A stretch of DNA of 33,663 bases from the NCBI GenBank assembly GCA_022843745.1, contig JALHNB010000069.1, forward strand, positions 1-33,663, written 5' to 3'. This DNA comes from Anaerolineae bacterium (lineage in GTDB: Bacteria; Chloroflexota; Anaerolineae; Aggregatilineales; Phototrophicaceae). Below the pieces are notes generated by a model, which saw only the letters and a program-made list of their open reading frames with translations, did not search any database and had not been told where the DNA came from. A program made the position numbers and the translations under genes. Positions 2 to 32,906 of this stretch are shown in pieces. The number at the start of each line of letters is the position of its first letter. Position 1 is the first letter of the stretch.

Positions 2-53
2 AAGTCCCTCTCCATGAGCCTGCGAAATGGGGAGGGATTTAGGGAGGGGTTAG
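2..53. repeat. Family B dispersed hairpin repeat, copy 1
   Basis: A C-rich arm (ccctctccatg) is followed by its G-rich complement (atggggaggg) and the conserved tail gggaggggtt. The same layout recurs about ten times in the window, including a close relative inside the GT2 gene at 14023-14082. The remainder of the leader up to position 250 is AT-rich, and I see no gene in it. Confidence 0.75.
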
Positions 54-10277: not shown

Positions 10278-11153
10278 TTAAGCATGTGCAATATCCTCAA
10301 TTTTGAGGTGTTCGCCCACCGTTTCCAGCAGCATGGTTGCGCGGGAGTCCCAGGTGTGCGGGCGTACCCAGCTTTGCGCGGCTTCGATATTGACCAGCGC
10401 GGCGCGGGGCTGCGACAAAATCGCCTGTGCTTCGTCTACAATTGTCGCCGGATCGTAAATCCAGATTCCGCTGGGTTGGAGCATCGAAAAATCGGCGCAG
10501 TTGTCGCTCATGACCACGCAGCCCATTGCAGCCGTTTCAAACACGCGCTGCGCTACATCACCACACGCGCTGACACACAGGCTGATGCGGGCGTTGTGGT
10601 AGGCCGCCACGTATTGATCGTACACCAGACCTGTCCCCGCCAGCACTTTTAACCCGGCTTTACGCAGCGACTCGACTAACTTTTCACGCTGCGGATACAT
10701 CACGCCGATCATGGCGATGTCATATTCACGCGCTGAAAACGGGATGGACGACGGTGTGTGCAGGGTCGGATCGTAGGCGCATGGAAGCCACGCTTCGTCG
10801 CTATAAATGACAGGCTGGGCAGGGCCGTGAGAATGCGCCAGAAAATATTGCGCGATTCCCGGCTGTCGAACATTGCGGACATGGTTGTCTACCGTCCAGA
10901 CGATGGTCGGCACACTCGGATCGGGGTAATGCCACTGGTAGGCGGTGTCCATGAGGATGCACAGGTCGGGAATCCAGCCATCTTCCGGCAGATTTTGCAG
11001 CCAGACATATTTTTCCGGCAGCGCGAGTCCCCAGATGTCGCGCCCGGTTTCCAGGCCGACATGCCGGACATCATGGCCGAGTCGCGTAAAAGCGTCGGCG
11101 GCGTATCGGGCGGAACAGAGGGGGTAATGAATCGCGTGAATCAGTATGCGCAA
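10278..11153 (-). CDS. CgeB-like glycosyltransferase
   Basis: This 291-residue protein resembles the CgeB/Glyco_trans_1_2 group of GT-B enzymes. The first half, with VPTIVWTVDNHVRNVRQ and YFLAHSHGPAQPVIYSDEAWLPCAYDP, is the usual acceptor domain. The second half carries REYDIAMIGVMYPQREKLVESLRKAGL and ARISLCVSACGDVAQRVFETAAMGCVVMSDNC, the nucleotide-sugar binding EExxG-like region (here VFETAAMG). The start is a TTG with AGGAG seven bases upstream. No ATG fits. Two other glycosyltransferases, at 13351 and 20379, share the window but are not adjacent. The sugar and acceptor are unknown. Confidence 0.8.
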   Translation of the reverse strand: MRILIHAIHYPLCSARYAADAFTRLGHDVRHVGLETGRDIWGLALPEKYVWLQNLPEDGWIPDLCILMDTAYQWHYPDPSVPTIVWTVDNHVRNVRQPGIAQYFLAHSHGPAQPVIYSDEAWLPCAYDPTLHTPSSIPFSAREYDIAMIGVMYPQREKLVESLRKAGLKVLAGTGLVYDQYVAAYHNARISLCVSACGDVAQRVFETAAMGCVVMSDNCADFSMLQPSGIWIYDPATIVDEAQAILSQPRAALVNIEAAQSWVRPHTWDSRATMLLETVGEHLKIEDIAHA

Positions 11154-11292
11154 GAAAAGTCTCCTGGAAGTCGATAGCTTGTAGTCGTTAGCTTTTAGCT
11201 TCTCAATTACATTTGTTACATCGTATGACGAAAGGATTTCTAGGAACTAAAGATGATCTGACTTTTCGGTAAGGTAATGGTGTTGGCAGGAA

Positions 11293-11316
11293 GGGCATGG
11301 CACGCCATGCCCCTAC
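11293..11316. repeat. Family A dispersed hairpin repeat
   Basis: GGGCATGGCACGCCATGCCC followed by CTAC. This copy pairs perfectly, with a centre sequence unlike the neighbouring copies. Confidence 0.75.
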
Positions 11317-11323
11317 AAATAGG

Positions 11324-11412
11324 ATGTTGTAGAAGCGCAATTCTATCAAATAAGATGTCGATAGAAGTGCAATTCTATCAGATAGAATGTTGATAGCGGT
11401 GCGATTCTATAC
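11324..11412. repeat. Three-unit palindromic tandem repeat (31-32 bp period)
   Basis: Units start at 11324, 11355 and 11387. Each contains GATAGAA-like and TTCTATC-like arms around a GTGCAA or GCGCAA core, so every unit can fold as a seven-base stem. The unit junctions also pair (TTCTATC A GATAGAA). The third unit runs over the stop codon of the TolB-like gene, which ends at 11407. Confidence 0.65.
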
Positions 11413-13211: not shown

Positions 13212-13342
13212 GGGCGCAATAATGCGTTTGAACAAAATAAATCGGTAACGCATTTCGTAGGGGCACGATGCATCGTGCCCTTACAGCCAATGTTGACGAC
13301 ATTACCGAAATAAAAAGTTCAACACTATTATTGCGCCCCTAC
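13212..13342. repeat. Nested family A composite repeat
   Basis: The outer arms GGGCGCAATAATGCG...ATCGGTAA (13212-13248) and TTACCGAAAT...ATTATTGCGCCCCTAC (13302-13342) form a long imperfect inverted repeat. Between them sits a complete second copy, GTAGGGGCACGATGCATCGT (13257 onward, to 13284), with a perfect stem. The structure fills the gap between the convergent MsrQ-like and GT2 genes. Confidence 0.7.
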
Positions 13343-13350
13343 TCATGTCA

Positions 13351-14232
13351 TTACCAATATCGCGCCATGATCGCTGGCGAATCGGGTGTGATGAGGCCGG
13401 AATCGACCCAACGGTGTTTGAACAGGAGCGCGTTGCGAGTGAAATTTTTGCTTCCACCCGTGCTGCCGACGCTGTGAACAAGCGTACAGGCAGGTTCATA
13501 CCAGATTTTGTAGCCCAACTCGCGCACCTTCAGGCATAAATCAGTATCCTCGAAATAGCCATTCGTGTAGTCCATATCAAAGCCGCCGACACGCTCAAAC
13601 AATTTGTGGCGAATGGCGAGTGCTGCTCCTGTTACCCAACTGACTTCCTGCGCCTTTGAGATTTCATGATAATCGCGATTGCGCCACATAAAACACCTGT
13701 GATAGGGGGTTCCACGCGCGTCGAATAACCCGCCTGCCGATTGGATGCGACCATCAGGGAATAACAGCCGTGCGCCGACGATGCCGACGGATGGATCGTC
13801 GAACGCCCGGAGAATGGCCGTATCCCAATTTTCGGACAGGTTGTGGACACCAAAAACGTCTTGATTAACGAACAGCAAAATATCCCCACCTGCGCGTTGG
13901 ACGGCGGCGTTGGCGTTGCCTGCGAATCCGAGGTTGCTCGGGTTGCGCTCGACGCGGGCGAGAGTCGGCGGGATGAGTGGGCGAATGTCGAGGGCAGGGG
14001 AAGCATCGTCCTGGACGAGGAATTCGACCCCTCCCCCGACCCCTCCCCATTTCGCTTCGCTCATAGAGAGGGGAGAAAATGCGTTGGATTGCAGGGTGTG
14101 GAGGGAGTTAAGGCAGGTGAGGAGCGCCGGGAGATCGTTGTAAAACGGGACGATGACGGATAGGGTGGGAGCGCAAACGGATATAGAGTGGTTGGTGGCG
14201 GATAGGGAGGGGGCGTTAGTGGATAGGGACAT
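13351..14232 (-). CDS. Family 2 glycosyltransferase with an in-frame repeat insertion
   Basis: This 293-residue GT-A enzyme is of the rhamnosyltransferase-like GT2 group. LSVIVPFYNDLPALLTCLNS (residues 24-43) opens the nucleotide-binding fold. EFLVQDDAS carries D75 and D76. SNLGFAGNANAAV is the usual NxGfaxaxN motif, LLFVNQDV holds the metal-site aspartate, and VSWVTGAALAIRH and GYFEDTDLCLKVRELGY hold the catalytic ED region. Residues about 51-70 (14023-14082) are encoded by a family B dispersed repeat placed in the loop between the first helix and second strand, and the frame stays open. The start is the ATG at 14232, 11 bases from GGAG. A TTG at 14235 is also possible. Confidence 0.88.
   Translation of the reverse strand: MSLSTNAPSLSATNHSISVCAPTLSVIVPFYNDLPALLTCLNSLHTLQSNAFSPLSMSEAKWGGVGGGVEFLVQDDASPALDIRPLIPPTLARVERNPSNLGFAGNANAAVQRAGGDILLFVNQDVFGVHNLSENWDTAILRAFDDPSVGIVGARLLFPDGRIQSAGGLFDARGTPYHRCFMWRNRDYHEISKAQEVSWVTGAALAIRHKLFERVGGFDMDYTNGYFEDTDLCLKVRELGYKIWYEPACTLVHSVGSTGGSKNFTRNALLFKHRWVDSGLITPDSPAIMARYW
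14023..14082. repeat. Family B repeat inside the GT2 coding sequence
   Basis: Read on the minus strand, CTCCCCTCTCTATGAGC and AAATGGGGAGGGG form the arms and GGGGGAGGGGTCGA the tail. This is almost the same layout and sequence as the intergenic copy at 2-53. It encodes SPLSMSEAKWGGVGGGVE in frame. Confidence 0.85.
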
Positions 14233-14504: not shown

Positions 14505-14537
14505 TAATTGAGCAGCCTCATCGTTCGGGGGAAATCT

Positions 14538-14559
14538 GGCGCAAGCCTTGCGCCCCTAC
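14538..14559. repeat. Family A dispersed hairpin repeat
   Basis: GGCGCAAGCCTTGCGCCCCT followed by AC. The same core recurs at 22572 and 32846. Confidence 0.75.
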
Positions 14560-14613
14560 AGATGCGTGACGCTAATCTGGCAATGACAGGGGATAGAGCA
14601 TTATAGAATGAGC

Positions 14614-17356: not shown

Positions 17357-17467
17357 CAGACGTGTTGCGAGCTTTTTTGAGCCGTTTAAAAGGTCGTAAC
17401 AGGGTTAGAAAAACGTTACCACGCTATCATGTGGTGCTACCACAGCCGTGTGCCCTTTTACCCAGCA

Positions 17468-17491
17468 GGGCACGATACATCGTGCCCCTAC
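17468..17491. repeat. Family A dispersed hairpin repeat
   Basis: GGGCACGATACATCGTGCCC followed by CTAC. The stem is nearly perfect. Confidence 0.75.
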
Positions 17492-17577
17492 AAAAACGTT
17501 GGCGCGTTATCCGTATTTAGCTGTCAAAACAACGCATTATCACGCCATTGCGTAATTCCAAATCCGGCGCGGATTTT

Positions 17578-17600: not shown

Positions 17601-17641
17601 TCGCCTAACAGCCTCTATACGAACATTTCGCGCACCGAAAA

Positions 17642-17664
17642 GGGTGCAAGCCTTGCGCTCCTAC
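17642..17664. repeat. Family A dispersed hairpin repeat
   Basis: GGGTGCAAGCCTTGCGCTCC followed by TAC. The downstream flank resembles that of the copies at 1980 and 25361. Confidence 0.7.
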
Positions 17665-17690
17665 GGAAGCGGTTCACGATGACCGATTTA

Positions 17691-20378: not shown

Positions 20379-21566
20379 TTAAGGCATCCCGATTTTCTCA
20401 ATGTTCATCAATTTTTCACGAATGGAACATACCCGTTCGATAGCGGCGATGACGTTATCGACGGCGGCTGTCCACGACTGCGCCCGCGCCCATTCCATGC
20501 CGCGTTCGGCGATGGCGGCGCGTTCGTGCGGGTGATCGTAGATGCGCTGGATTTCGCTGACGACGTGGGCGATGTCGGGGAATTTATCGAGCGCGTTGCC
20601 CCAGGTGGAGACGGACGTATACACCAGCGGGCGAATGAGCAGGCCGCGCCCGTTGCCGACGATCTCCGCGCCGCTGCACCAATCCAGCGCCATTGTCGCC
20701 ACGCCACAGGCCATACTTTCGACTAATGGCAATCCCCAGCCTTCGCGATGCGACAAAACGCTGTGCAGATCGAGCAGGTTATAGCGTTCCCGCAGATGCG
20801 TTAGCCCCGCGCGTTGAGCGTCGATGCGAAAAATCAGCTTATCGGCGTTCCAGCCGAACTGCTGACACATGGCGGGGATATTCCAGCCGGCGGGCGAAAC
20901 CGCGTCCATATCCAGCAGCAGCCGCGCGGTGGGCTTGTCACGCGAAAATTCGAAAAACGCGCGGAGGGTATCGGGTATATCTTTGCGGCCTTGATTTTGC
21001 GCGAACATACCCATGACAAAAGTGTCTGGCGCGATGTTGAGTTTTTCACGCAGGGCGATTCGTTCGGCATCCGGCAGGCGATAGAACACGTCGGGGTCGA
21101 TGCCGGGGCGACACAGGCCAACGCTTGCCCCTACGTCGCGAAAAGCCTTTACGCCAAATTCGCTGATGGTCAGCGCGGCATCGGCTTTTTTCACGGTGTC
21201 GATCCAGTCGGTCAGAATCGGGATTCCATCCACAGGCGTGATGACGATGAAGCCATGCTGCGACCAATCGACGGGCGCGTGGCGGAGGTGGTGCGCATAA
21301 GGCGCATCCTGTAGGCAGATCACGATGTCAGGATTGTAAACGCCGATCAGCTTGACGGTTTCTTCAAGCCAGTTTTTTCCGGCGAGCGAGGCGACCCAAT
21401 AGGGCAGGGGTTGGCCTTCGTACTGCGGCGGGAGCAGGCCATCGTATTGAATCGAGGCCGCCATGATCGAGTAGCCGCGCCGGGTGAGGGCGGTGTTGAG
21501 GTGCATCGCGATTCTTCCGAATCCAGAAGCAACGCCATCGTCGGAGAGAACGAGAATTTTGGTCAT
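20379..21566 (-). CDS. GT-B glycosyltransferase (GT4-like)
   Basis: This is a 395-residue glycosyltransferase. The N-terminal domain opens with KILVLSDDGVASGFGRIAMHLNTALTRRGY, a typical GT4 start with a glycine loop. The C-terminal donor domain has GMFAQNQGRKDIPDTLRAFFEFSRDKPTARLLLDMD and the nucleotide-sugar motif SHREGWGLPLVESMACGVATMALDWCSGAE, with the E-x7-E pair. Length and layout are complete. It may transfer a sugar to a cell-surface polymer, but no polysaccharide gene cluster is present. The ribosome site is weak. Confidence 0.88.
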   Translation of the reverse strand: MTKILVLSDDGVASGFGRIAMHLNTALTRRGYSIMAASIQYDGLLPPQYEGQPLPYWVASLAGKNWLEETVKLIGVYNPDIVICLQDAPYAHHLRHAPVDWSQHGFIVITPVDGIPILTDWIDTVKKADAALTISEFGVKAFRDVGASVGLCRPGIDPDVFYRLPDAERIALREKLNIAPDTFVMGMFAQNQGRKDIPDTLRAFFEFSRDKPTARLLLDMDAVSPAGWNIPAMCQQFGWNADKLIFRIDAQRAGLTHLRERYNLLDLHSVLSHREGWGLPLVESMACGVATMALDWCSGAEIVGNGRGLLIRPLVYTSVSTWGNALDKFPDIAHVVSEIQRIYDHPHERAAIAERGMEWARAQSWTAAVDNVIAAIERVCSIREKLMNIEKIGMP

Positions 21567-22506: not shown

Positions 22507-22571
22507 TCAGCAAATGCAAAAGTCGCAACGCAAAGGTGCGGGGAAGCAGAGGCGCGGAGGGGAAATAAAGA

Positions 22572-22594
22572 GGGCGCAAGCCTTGCGCCCCTAC
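22572..22594. repeat. Family A dispersed hairpin repeat
   Basis: GGGCGCAAGCCTTGCGCCCC followed by TAC, between the broken DUF4058 gene and the serine hydrolase gene. Confidence 0.75.
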
Positions 22595-22610
22595 AGTGAA
22601 CATTTTACGA

Positions 22611-25289: not shown

Positions 25290-25337
25290 TTTCCAGGAAC
25301 ACCCACGTTTTGGCGAACATTTCGGTTGGGTGAACCA

Positions 25338-25411
25338 GGGCATGATGCATCATGCCCCTACGAAAACCGTACTCCGATTTATTTTGTTGAATCGCATCAT
25401 TTTGCCCCTAC
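25338..25411. repeat. Family A composite repeat with long flank
   Basis: GGGCATGATGCATCATGCCC followed by CTAC at 25358-25361, and then a flank CGTACTCCGATTTATTTTGT leading to a second half-site TTTGCCCCTAC ending at 25411. The composite matches those at 13212 and 33502 in reverse orientation. Confidence 0.65.
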
Positions 25412-32821: not shown

Positions 32822-32845
32822 AATCTCTTATCTTGGTGCATATGA

Positions 32846-32868
32846 GGGCGCAAGCCTTGCGCCCCTAC
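32846..32868. repeat. Family A dispersed hairpin repeat
   Basis: GGGCGCAAGCCTTGCGCCCC followed by TAC, the same core as at 22572. It sits directly behind the truncated frame. Confidence 0.75.
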
Positions 32869-32906
32869 AAAATCCGCTGATATTTCTACCTGCGTTTTTG
32901 CCTTTC

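Follow-up and report, generated by a model that had tools for sequence, protein, structure and literature searches.

The GT2 locus and its repeat copy

We analyzed a stretch of 33,663 nucleotides from an Anaerolineae bacterium (contig JALHNB010000069.1, here C69), referred to below as the window, the features of which are collected in Table 1. On the minus strand, a GT2 glycosyltransferase gene lies between two other glycosyltransferase-like genes, and its reading frame includes a copy of a palindromic repeat. A first-pass annotation had placed this repeat at 14023-14082 and credited it with about 20 residues. The repeat is indeed present, although the extent was slightly generous, with the copy covering 49 nt and the net addition amounting to 17 codons. 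The frame stays open over all 297 codons, as had been claimed, and the Pfam GT2 match (PF00535, residues 25-180, E 4.2e-10) includes the insert within its span. The inserted peptide, FSPLSMSEAKWGGVGGG, corresponds to residues 52-68 when numbered from the ATG at 14232. As read from the sequence, the copy is free of stop codons in four of its six frames. Single-sequence folding of the copy gave a modest z-score (-1.27), and a search of Rfam returned no family at the gathering threshold across the window, with the repeat site itself giving sub-threshold matches only.

The GT2 copy is identical, at 49 of 49 positions, to two copies elsewhere in the same genome (L043:5614-5662 and L042:10474-10522). 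A second copy in the window is intergenic and had been noted, at 2-53, as following the same arm-loop-arm-tail plan; the two copies do share this plan, and bases 6-50 align at 82.6% identity. This second copy is half of a doublet at the contig end. At their starts, contigs C69 and C76 share an inverted overlap (window 1 to about 147), of which 118 nt match exactly; the two contigs are thus probably neighbours that were broken at a repeat doublet. The window also holds GTAG-REP-like hairpins, in which GTAGGGGC or GTAGGAGC stands beside a palindrome on either strand. With GTAG at one end, they are reminiscent of the GTAG-tagged REPs (PMC3733652), and one such repeat lies upstream of the GT2 gene.

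Table 1 Features of the window considered in the analysis. Positions are those of the window.
Feature	Position	Strand	Remarks
GT2 glycosyltransferase ORF, 297 aa	13351..14244	-	GTG start, in-frame ATG at 14232; open across the insert
Glycosyltransferase-like neighbour, Pfam Glyco_trans_1_2	10278..11153	-	44% identical to L012 562-1497 (-)
Glycosyltransferase-like neighbour, Pfam Glycos_transf_1	20379..21566	-	59% identical to L012 2339-3664 (-)
Repeat copy in GT2, 49 nt, loop12 (type a) form	14027..14075	-	CTCCCCTCTCTATGAGCGAAGCGAAATGGGGAGGGGTCGGGGGAGGGGT
Net inserted DNA relative to orthologue L012	14029..14079	-	51 nt = 17 codons, codon-level alignment
Hairpin 5' arm, 11 nt	14063..14073	-	
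Loop region, 12 nt	14051..14062	-	GAGCGAAGCGAA
Hairpin 3' arm, 11 nt	14040..14050	-	
G-rich tail	14027..14039	-	With the 3' arm gives GGGGAGGGGTCGGGGGAGGGG, a putative four-run G-quadruplex-type motif
Second repeat copy, intergenic, arm subtype c, loop11	3..51	+	Half of a head-to-head doublet, other half on contig C76
Repeat relative, short-loop	27316..27351	-	Profile match 16.7 bits
Repeat relative, short-loop	29511..29549	-	Profile match 17.1 bits
Other hairpin repeats with GTAGGGGC or GTAGGAGC	11291-11322, 13259-13290, 17466-17497, 25336-25367		
Other hairpin repeats with GTAGGGGC or GTAGGAGC	14535-14560, 17640-17665, 22570-22595, 32844-32869		
Short tandem repeats	272-315 and 11330-11393		Units of 11 nt and 32 nt

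Comparison with GT2 homologues

The best orthologue of the GT2 gene (locus L012, genome G024) is 56% identical over the match and syntenic, with the two genes that flank it being found in the same order as their counterparts in the window, where the spacing is wider. When compared at the codon level, L012 is shorter by exactly 51 nt at the insert site, such that CTG CAA .. GCA / insert / GTC GAA TTC in the window corresponds to CTG CAA .. GCG / GTG GAA TAT in L012. The segment is missing from all 24 GT2 loci that were fetched from relatives (L012 included, and out of many more matches), with the flanking codons in register, as well as from the viral-contig homologues, in all 16 cases in which the site is covered. 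For the latter, 19 of 25 loci were used, three of which start after the site, while L179, L186-L189 (apparent near-duplicates by their table rows) and L197 (stops) were left out. These alignments agree with the earlier view that the segment does not belong to the usual GT2 plan. Beyond the insert, about 225 codons stay in frame and align to the last residue of the orthologue. It should be noted that an orthologue at 56% identity is too distant to gauge selection after the insertion. Some of the viral-contig homologues differ otherwise by short lengths at the same loop, indicating that the connection between helix and strand is naturally variable. Two of the viral-classed contigs (L173 and L174, from IMG/VR) encode GT2 proteins that are 51-55% identical to that of the window, a level similar to that of the best genomic orthologue.

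An AlphaFold2 model of the GT2 protein, for which the viral-contig homologues were used, reached a mean pLDDT of 89.3 and a pTM of 0.86. Residues 53-66 present pLDDT values below 50 and lie between a helix at 34-47 and a strand at 69-75, the location between the first helix and the second strand that the first-pass annotation had predicted. Judging from the model, the approximately 17 added residues appear to sit in a flexible surface loop at this connection. A phmmer search of the GT2 protein against PDB sequences gave no match at E 0.001. With Foldseek, the best PDB matches of the model were ppGalNAc transferases, which we take to be GT-A enzymes; in the GT-A fold, the connection between the first helix and the second strand is presumably away from the active site.

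The repeat family in the genome

Using 121 nt around the site as a query against the same genome (8.0 Mb, 117 contigs), we found at least 44 places, including the query site (40 of 160 candidates scored), with the five next-best showing 96-100% identity over 49-54 nt (best E 1.5e-19), a recurrence not attributable to chance. A covariance model built from 40 copies gave at least 149 matches in this genome at E 0.01 (150 of 3219 first-look candidates scored), while a profile search yielded 144 copies in 79 own-genome sequences that together span 1.44 Mb. These sequences are 78 fetched stretches (one overlap trimmed) and the window, and represent 18% of the genome. As they were mostly picked for holding copies, any densities derived from them should not be read as genome-wide rates. 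The first catalogue, moreover, was seeded from the window copy with the 12-nt loop. By loop form, 31 of the 144 copies have a 12-nt loop (loop12), 85 an 11-nt loop (loop11), 24 are short-loop copies and four are of other forms.

The element consists of an 11-bp hairpin, a loop region of 11 or 12 nt and a G-rich tail, and is 48-51 nt long, with a variant of 57-59 nt. In the 40-copy alignment its ends are CTCCCC/AGTCCC and GGGGTT. Across the 30 distinct rows of this alignment, 99.1% of cells are paired in the hairpin, as compared to 56.7-71.2% when the partner is slid. At two pairs, 13 cells were changed on both sides, a number reached by none of 500 shuffles; these double changes are C-G to U-A, which tracks the arm subtype, and U-A to C-G. 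By contrast, 316 of 500 shuffles reached as many pairs with a double change (two), all 500 reached as many pair types (four), and the shuffles do not preserve relatedness among the copies. With such mixed measures of covariation, the hairpin should be considered as supported but not proven.

Copies that lie less than 150 nt apart (n = 22) are arranged head-to-head in 21 cases, with spacers of 14-18 nt in 20 pairs and of 59 nt in one. Of 20 doublets typed by script, 17 consist of one c-type and one a/b-type unit. A motif of four G-runs, each of at least four, occurs in 68 of the 144 copies; 103 such motifs are found in the entire 1.44 Mb on both strands, a background that consists of regions picked for holding copies. 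The GT2 copy is most probably one copy of a dispersed, non-autonomous, REP-like palindromic element that occurs as singlets or as head-to-head doublets.

Matches to the covariance model at E 1e-3 were obtained in 42 of 61 genomes, a number that counts the genome of the window. Among the matches listed, those in relatives are mostly 40-44 nt long, and head-to-head pairs are also seen among those of relative G054. A 49-nt match in relative G004 was set apart, as it has a different, longer stem. On an Anaerolineae MAG contig (L039), a loop12-like copy lies between two ORFs. Of 30 loci inspected by script in two relatives, 29 were evaluable (L199 was excluded); 21 lie in no ORF of at least 150 codons, the other eight lie in such ORFs, and none of the inspected copies was established as intragenic.

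Other intragenic copies

We judged 15 of the 144 copies to be intragenic, ten of them loop-bearing and five short-loop. The search for further in-frame copies, suggested in the first pass, thus found them in unrelated genes, and five genes with an intragenic copy have segment-free orthologues or paralogues in the same genome. For the AlkZ-like gene (L043), a 17-residue gap is seen in all eight usable orthologues, three of which lack one or two more residues. For the beta-lactamase-like gene (L047), a 21-residue gap is seen in nine of nine homologues, including three tandem paralogues on the same contig. The L064 gene, which has no Pfam match, faces a 23-residue gap in four of four orthologues; its identity to the G026 orthologue is 82% after the site and 57% before it. 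Rows L135, L138 and L139 were excluded from these three comparisons. The DUF5107/TPR gene contains a longer composite insert, absent in all four usable orthologues (row L170 excluded). As the net inserts in two of the genes compared are of 63 and 69 nt rather than 51 nt, the insertion unit is not uniform. Two observations on the surroundings may be added: L047 (G000:C20:91548-100923) comprises four consecutive beta-lactamase-like paralogues, one of which has the repeat insert, and in the DUF5107/TPR gene (L057, just before 9816) a different repeat-like peptide, PLPPTPSPLRREGE, directly precedes the element.

In six genes (GT2, AlkZ-like, beta-lactamase, Glycos_transf_1, PfkB and nSTAND1), the copy lies within a single Pfam domain match. 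When the PfkB-family gene was aligned to Mak1 (6wb4), the residues of the segment were unmatched. For the GT4 gene (L048), no relatives were found at 1e-50, and the intragenic call rests on the Pfam match across the copy. The weaker copies (phosphotransferase-like, beta-CASP, FtsK-like, antiporter-like and three polyketide synthase copies) are found at domain edges, in linkers or outside domains. The one polyketide synthase copy that was compared presented no evident net insertion, CurL (4mz0) having a linker of similar length. The large polyketide synthase genes at L111 and L112 (G000:C57) contain short-loop copies, both downstream of the ketosynthase domain and within another linker. The encoded peptides, which include PLSMSEAKWGG, PLYERSEMGR, TPPPTPPHFASLIERG and PLPQPLPISQAHGEG, derive from both orientations and several frames. 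Three candidates were rejected as intragenic: L044:9459 and L051:16120 are in long ORFs but apparently upstream of the true start, and L102:9890 is near the end of a seemingly spurious long ORF. When codon scores were used to test for gene-breaking insertions, only one of the 15 intragenic copies was recovered, making the test too weak to use.

Loop length and coding compatibility

A net insertion of 51 nt was measured for the loop12 copies in the GT2 and AlkZ-like genes. Among singlets, 6 of 12 loop12 copies are intragenic, as compared to 4 of 64 loop11 copies (Fisher p = 6.5e-4), while among all copies the corresponding numbers are 6 of 31 and 4 of 85 (p = 0.022); this test was post hoc, made after the data had been seen. 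The 12-nt-loop variant could be read as a frame-safe form, which brings a 51-nt net insertion and lies in genes proportionally more often than the 11-nt-loop variant. We regard this reading as doubtful, and the loop12 copy in the beta-lactamase-like gene, which gives 63 nt, speaks against it.

Comparison with known palindromic repeats

The likening of the insertion to the RPEs of Rickettsia, made in the first pass, is apt as an analogy, since in both cases a palindromic repeat is found in intergenic DNA and in frame within unrelated protein genes (PMC2229807, PMC10969869). The element is, however, not an RPE: RPEs are about 105-150 nt long, as opposed to 49 nt here, and those of R. conorii are said to end in CGTC (PMC3733652), a tag that the element does not carry. 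Moreover, close to half of the RPEs, belonging to three of the ten families, are reported to lie in ORFs (PMC10969869), whereas here 15 of 144 copies do so. RPE insertions have been described in 19 Rickettsia reading frames, and a guanylate kinase that bears one is active (PMC2229807). The frequency of RPEs was called unusual, with similar events elsewhere being thought conceivable (PMC10969869). The earlier observation is confirmed, and its interpretation is supported as an analogy.

Like the GTAG and CGTC REPs (PMC3733652), the element forms short, mostly intergenic hairpins in which head-to-head dimers predominate, with a minority being found in ORFs. It differs from these in having neither tag in the 40-copy alignment and in its long G-rich tail, which repeats the arm motif. 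With GTAG REPs and REPINs it shares the form of a short imperfect palindrome in high copy number, although a PF01797 search revealed no linked cognate RAYT. As in REPINs, two units in inverted orientation are set apart by a short spacer and could fold together into one larger hairpin (PMC3116915). Yet REPINs are described as extragenic and near specific RAYTs (PMC3116915), whereas nine of the ten loop-bearing intragenic copies here lie outside the listed doublets of the element, and the doublets mostly join two arm subtypes (17 of the 20 typed). Intragenic GTAG and CGTC REPs have already been listed in several species, GTAG families were also reported from the phylum Chloroflexi, and untagged REP families are said to need study (PMC3733652). 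A description of the present family was not found in the open-licence literature searched. As the intragenic REP/RPE kind is known, the tags are absent and this search was negative, the family appears new within that literature, and the repeat appears to be an untagged family of its own within an already known kind, namely the in-frame palindromic insertion.

Origin of the insertion

We consider it very likely that a REP-like element was inserted in frame into the GT2 gene after the lineage had split from its relatives, and that this insertion would be translated and near-neutral. The dispersed, near-identical copies, together with the comparisons of filled and empty sites, point to mobility. 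Most likely, the repeat would move as a single-strand hairpin substrate in an IS200/REPIN-like manner, with a transposase acting in trans, a route as proposed for REPs and REPINs (PMC3116915; PMC3733652). A Y1 transposase was considered as the mobiliser but not supported, as the one strong Y1 gene is flanked by a different repeat and no copy of the element was found at its locus; a weak second Y1 match (L041), from the PF01797 search only, likewise shows no copy. The strong gene, which is Y1/RAYT-like (L040, G000:C101:2755-3096), has flanking palindromes of its own, which recur at several other places in the sequences examined.

Upon insertion, the element would add a net length of 51 nt, which is divisible by three, in one of its four stop-free frames, such that translation should continue through it with a gain of 17 residues. 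These residues would fall in the GT-A loop between the first helix and the second strand, which is length-variable among homologues. The GT2 protein would then probably stay functional, with the insertion close to neutral; here, we infer both retained activity and translation. The open frame, in turn, suggests that the repeat donates coding sequence. Selection would subsequently retain only those insertions that preserve the frame at tolerated places, with which the bias of genes toward the 12-nt loop, post hoc as it is, agrees.

Alternatively, the element may have recently entered a gene that is no longer functional, with the frame being open by luck and the protein misfolding or not being made. 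The identity of 49 of 49 positions with two other copies does indicate that the insertion is young, and such luck would be helped by four of six frames being without a stop and by a net length that is a multiple of three. Nonetheless, we find this explanation unlikely, as the approximately 225 codons after the insert are in frame and aligned to the end of the orthologue, as the predicted model is of high confidence outside the segment, and as the same pattern is seen in several unrelated genes with orthologues. Given the identity of the copy to others, the GT2 insertion may be too young to reveal whether the gene survives.

It is less probable still, and in our view quite improbable, that DNA or RNA structure was kept rather than the peptide. 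In such a case, the hairpin or the G-rich tail would serve in the transcript, through pausing, an RNase site or a quadruplex, or else would serve as a DNA-binding site, with its coding role being a by-product. The pairing and covariation of the hairpin would fit such a role, as would the presence of the four-G-run motif in 68 of 144 copies versus 103 motifs in the 1.44 Mb of copy-holding regions. Covariation is, however, expected from the mobility mechanism alone, and as both orientations occur in genes, one mRNA structure is not the common reason. An assembly artefact, by which the repeat was misplaced into the gene, could be suspected in an assembly of 117 contigs where the left end of the window breaks at a repeat copy. 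This is highly improbable, since the two halves of the gene, separated by no more than the 51 nt, align with a single contiguous orthologue without any shift in codon register, while a false join would normally bring in unrelated flanks. Finally, an ancestral GT2 sequence that resembled the repeat by chance and was lost in relatives is a bare logical possibility that can practically be dismissed, considering the 49 of 49 identity with two dispersed copies and the absence of the segment from every homologue examined (24 of 24 and 16 of 16).

Returning to the in-frame insertion of a REP-like element as the preferred reading, in-frame palindromic insertion is extended to an untagged family in a large-genome lineage, with comparisons of filled and empty sites in several enzymes, tandem paralogues among them, and natural enzyme pairs with and without the inserted segment become available. 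Annotators should be aware that peptides like SPLSMSEAKWGGVGGG or TPPPTPPHFASLIERG in such genomes derive from repeats. The difference in loop length may control coding compatibility. Should the frame-safe reading of the 12-nt loop be true, one loop base would decide whether a mobile repeat donates a peptide, and the lineage would be one in which a repeat keeps tinkering with proteins in a manner open to selection.
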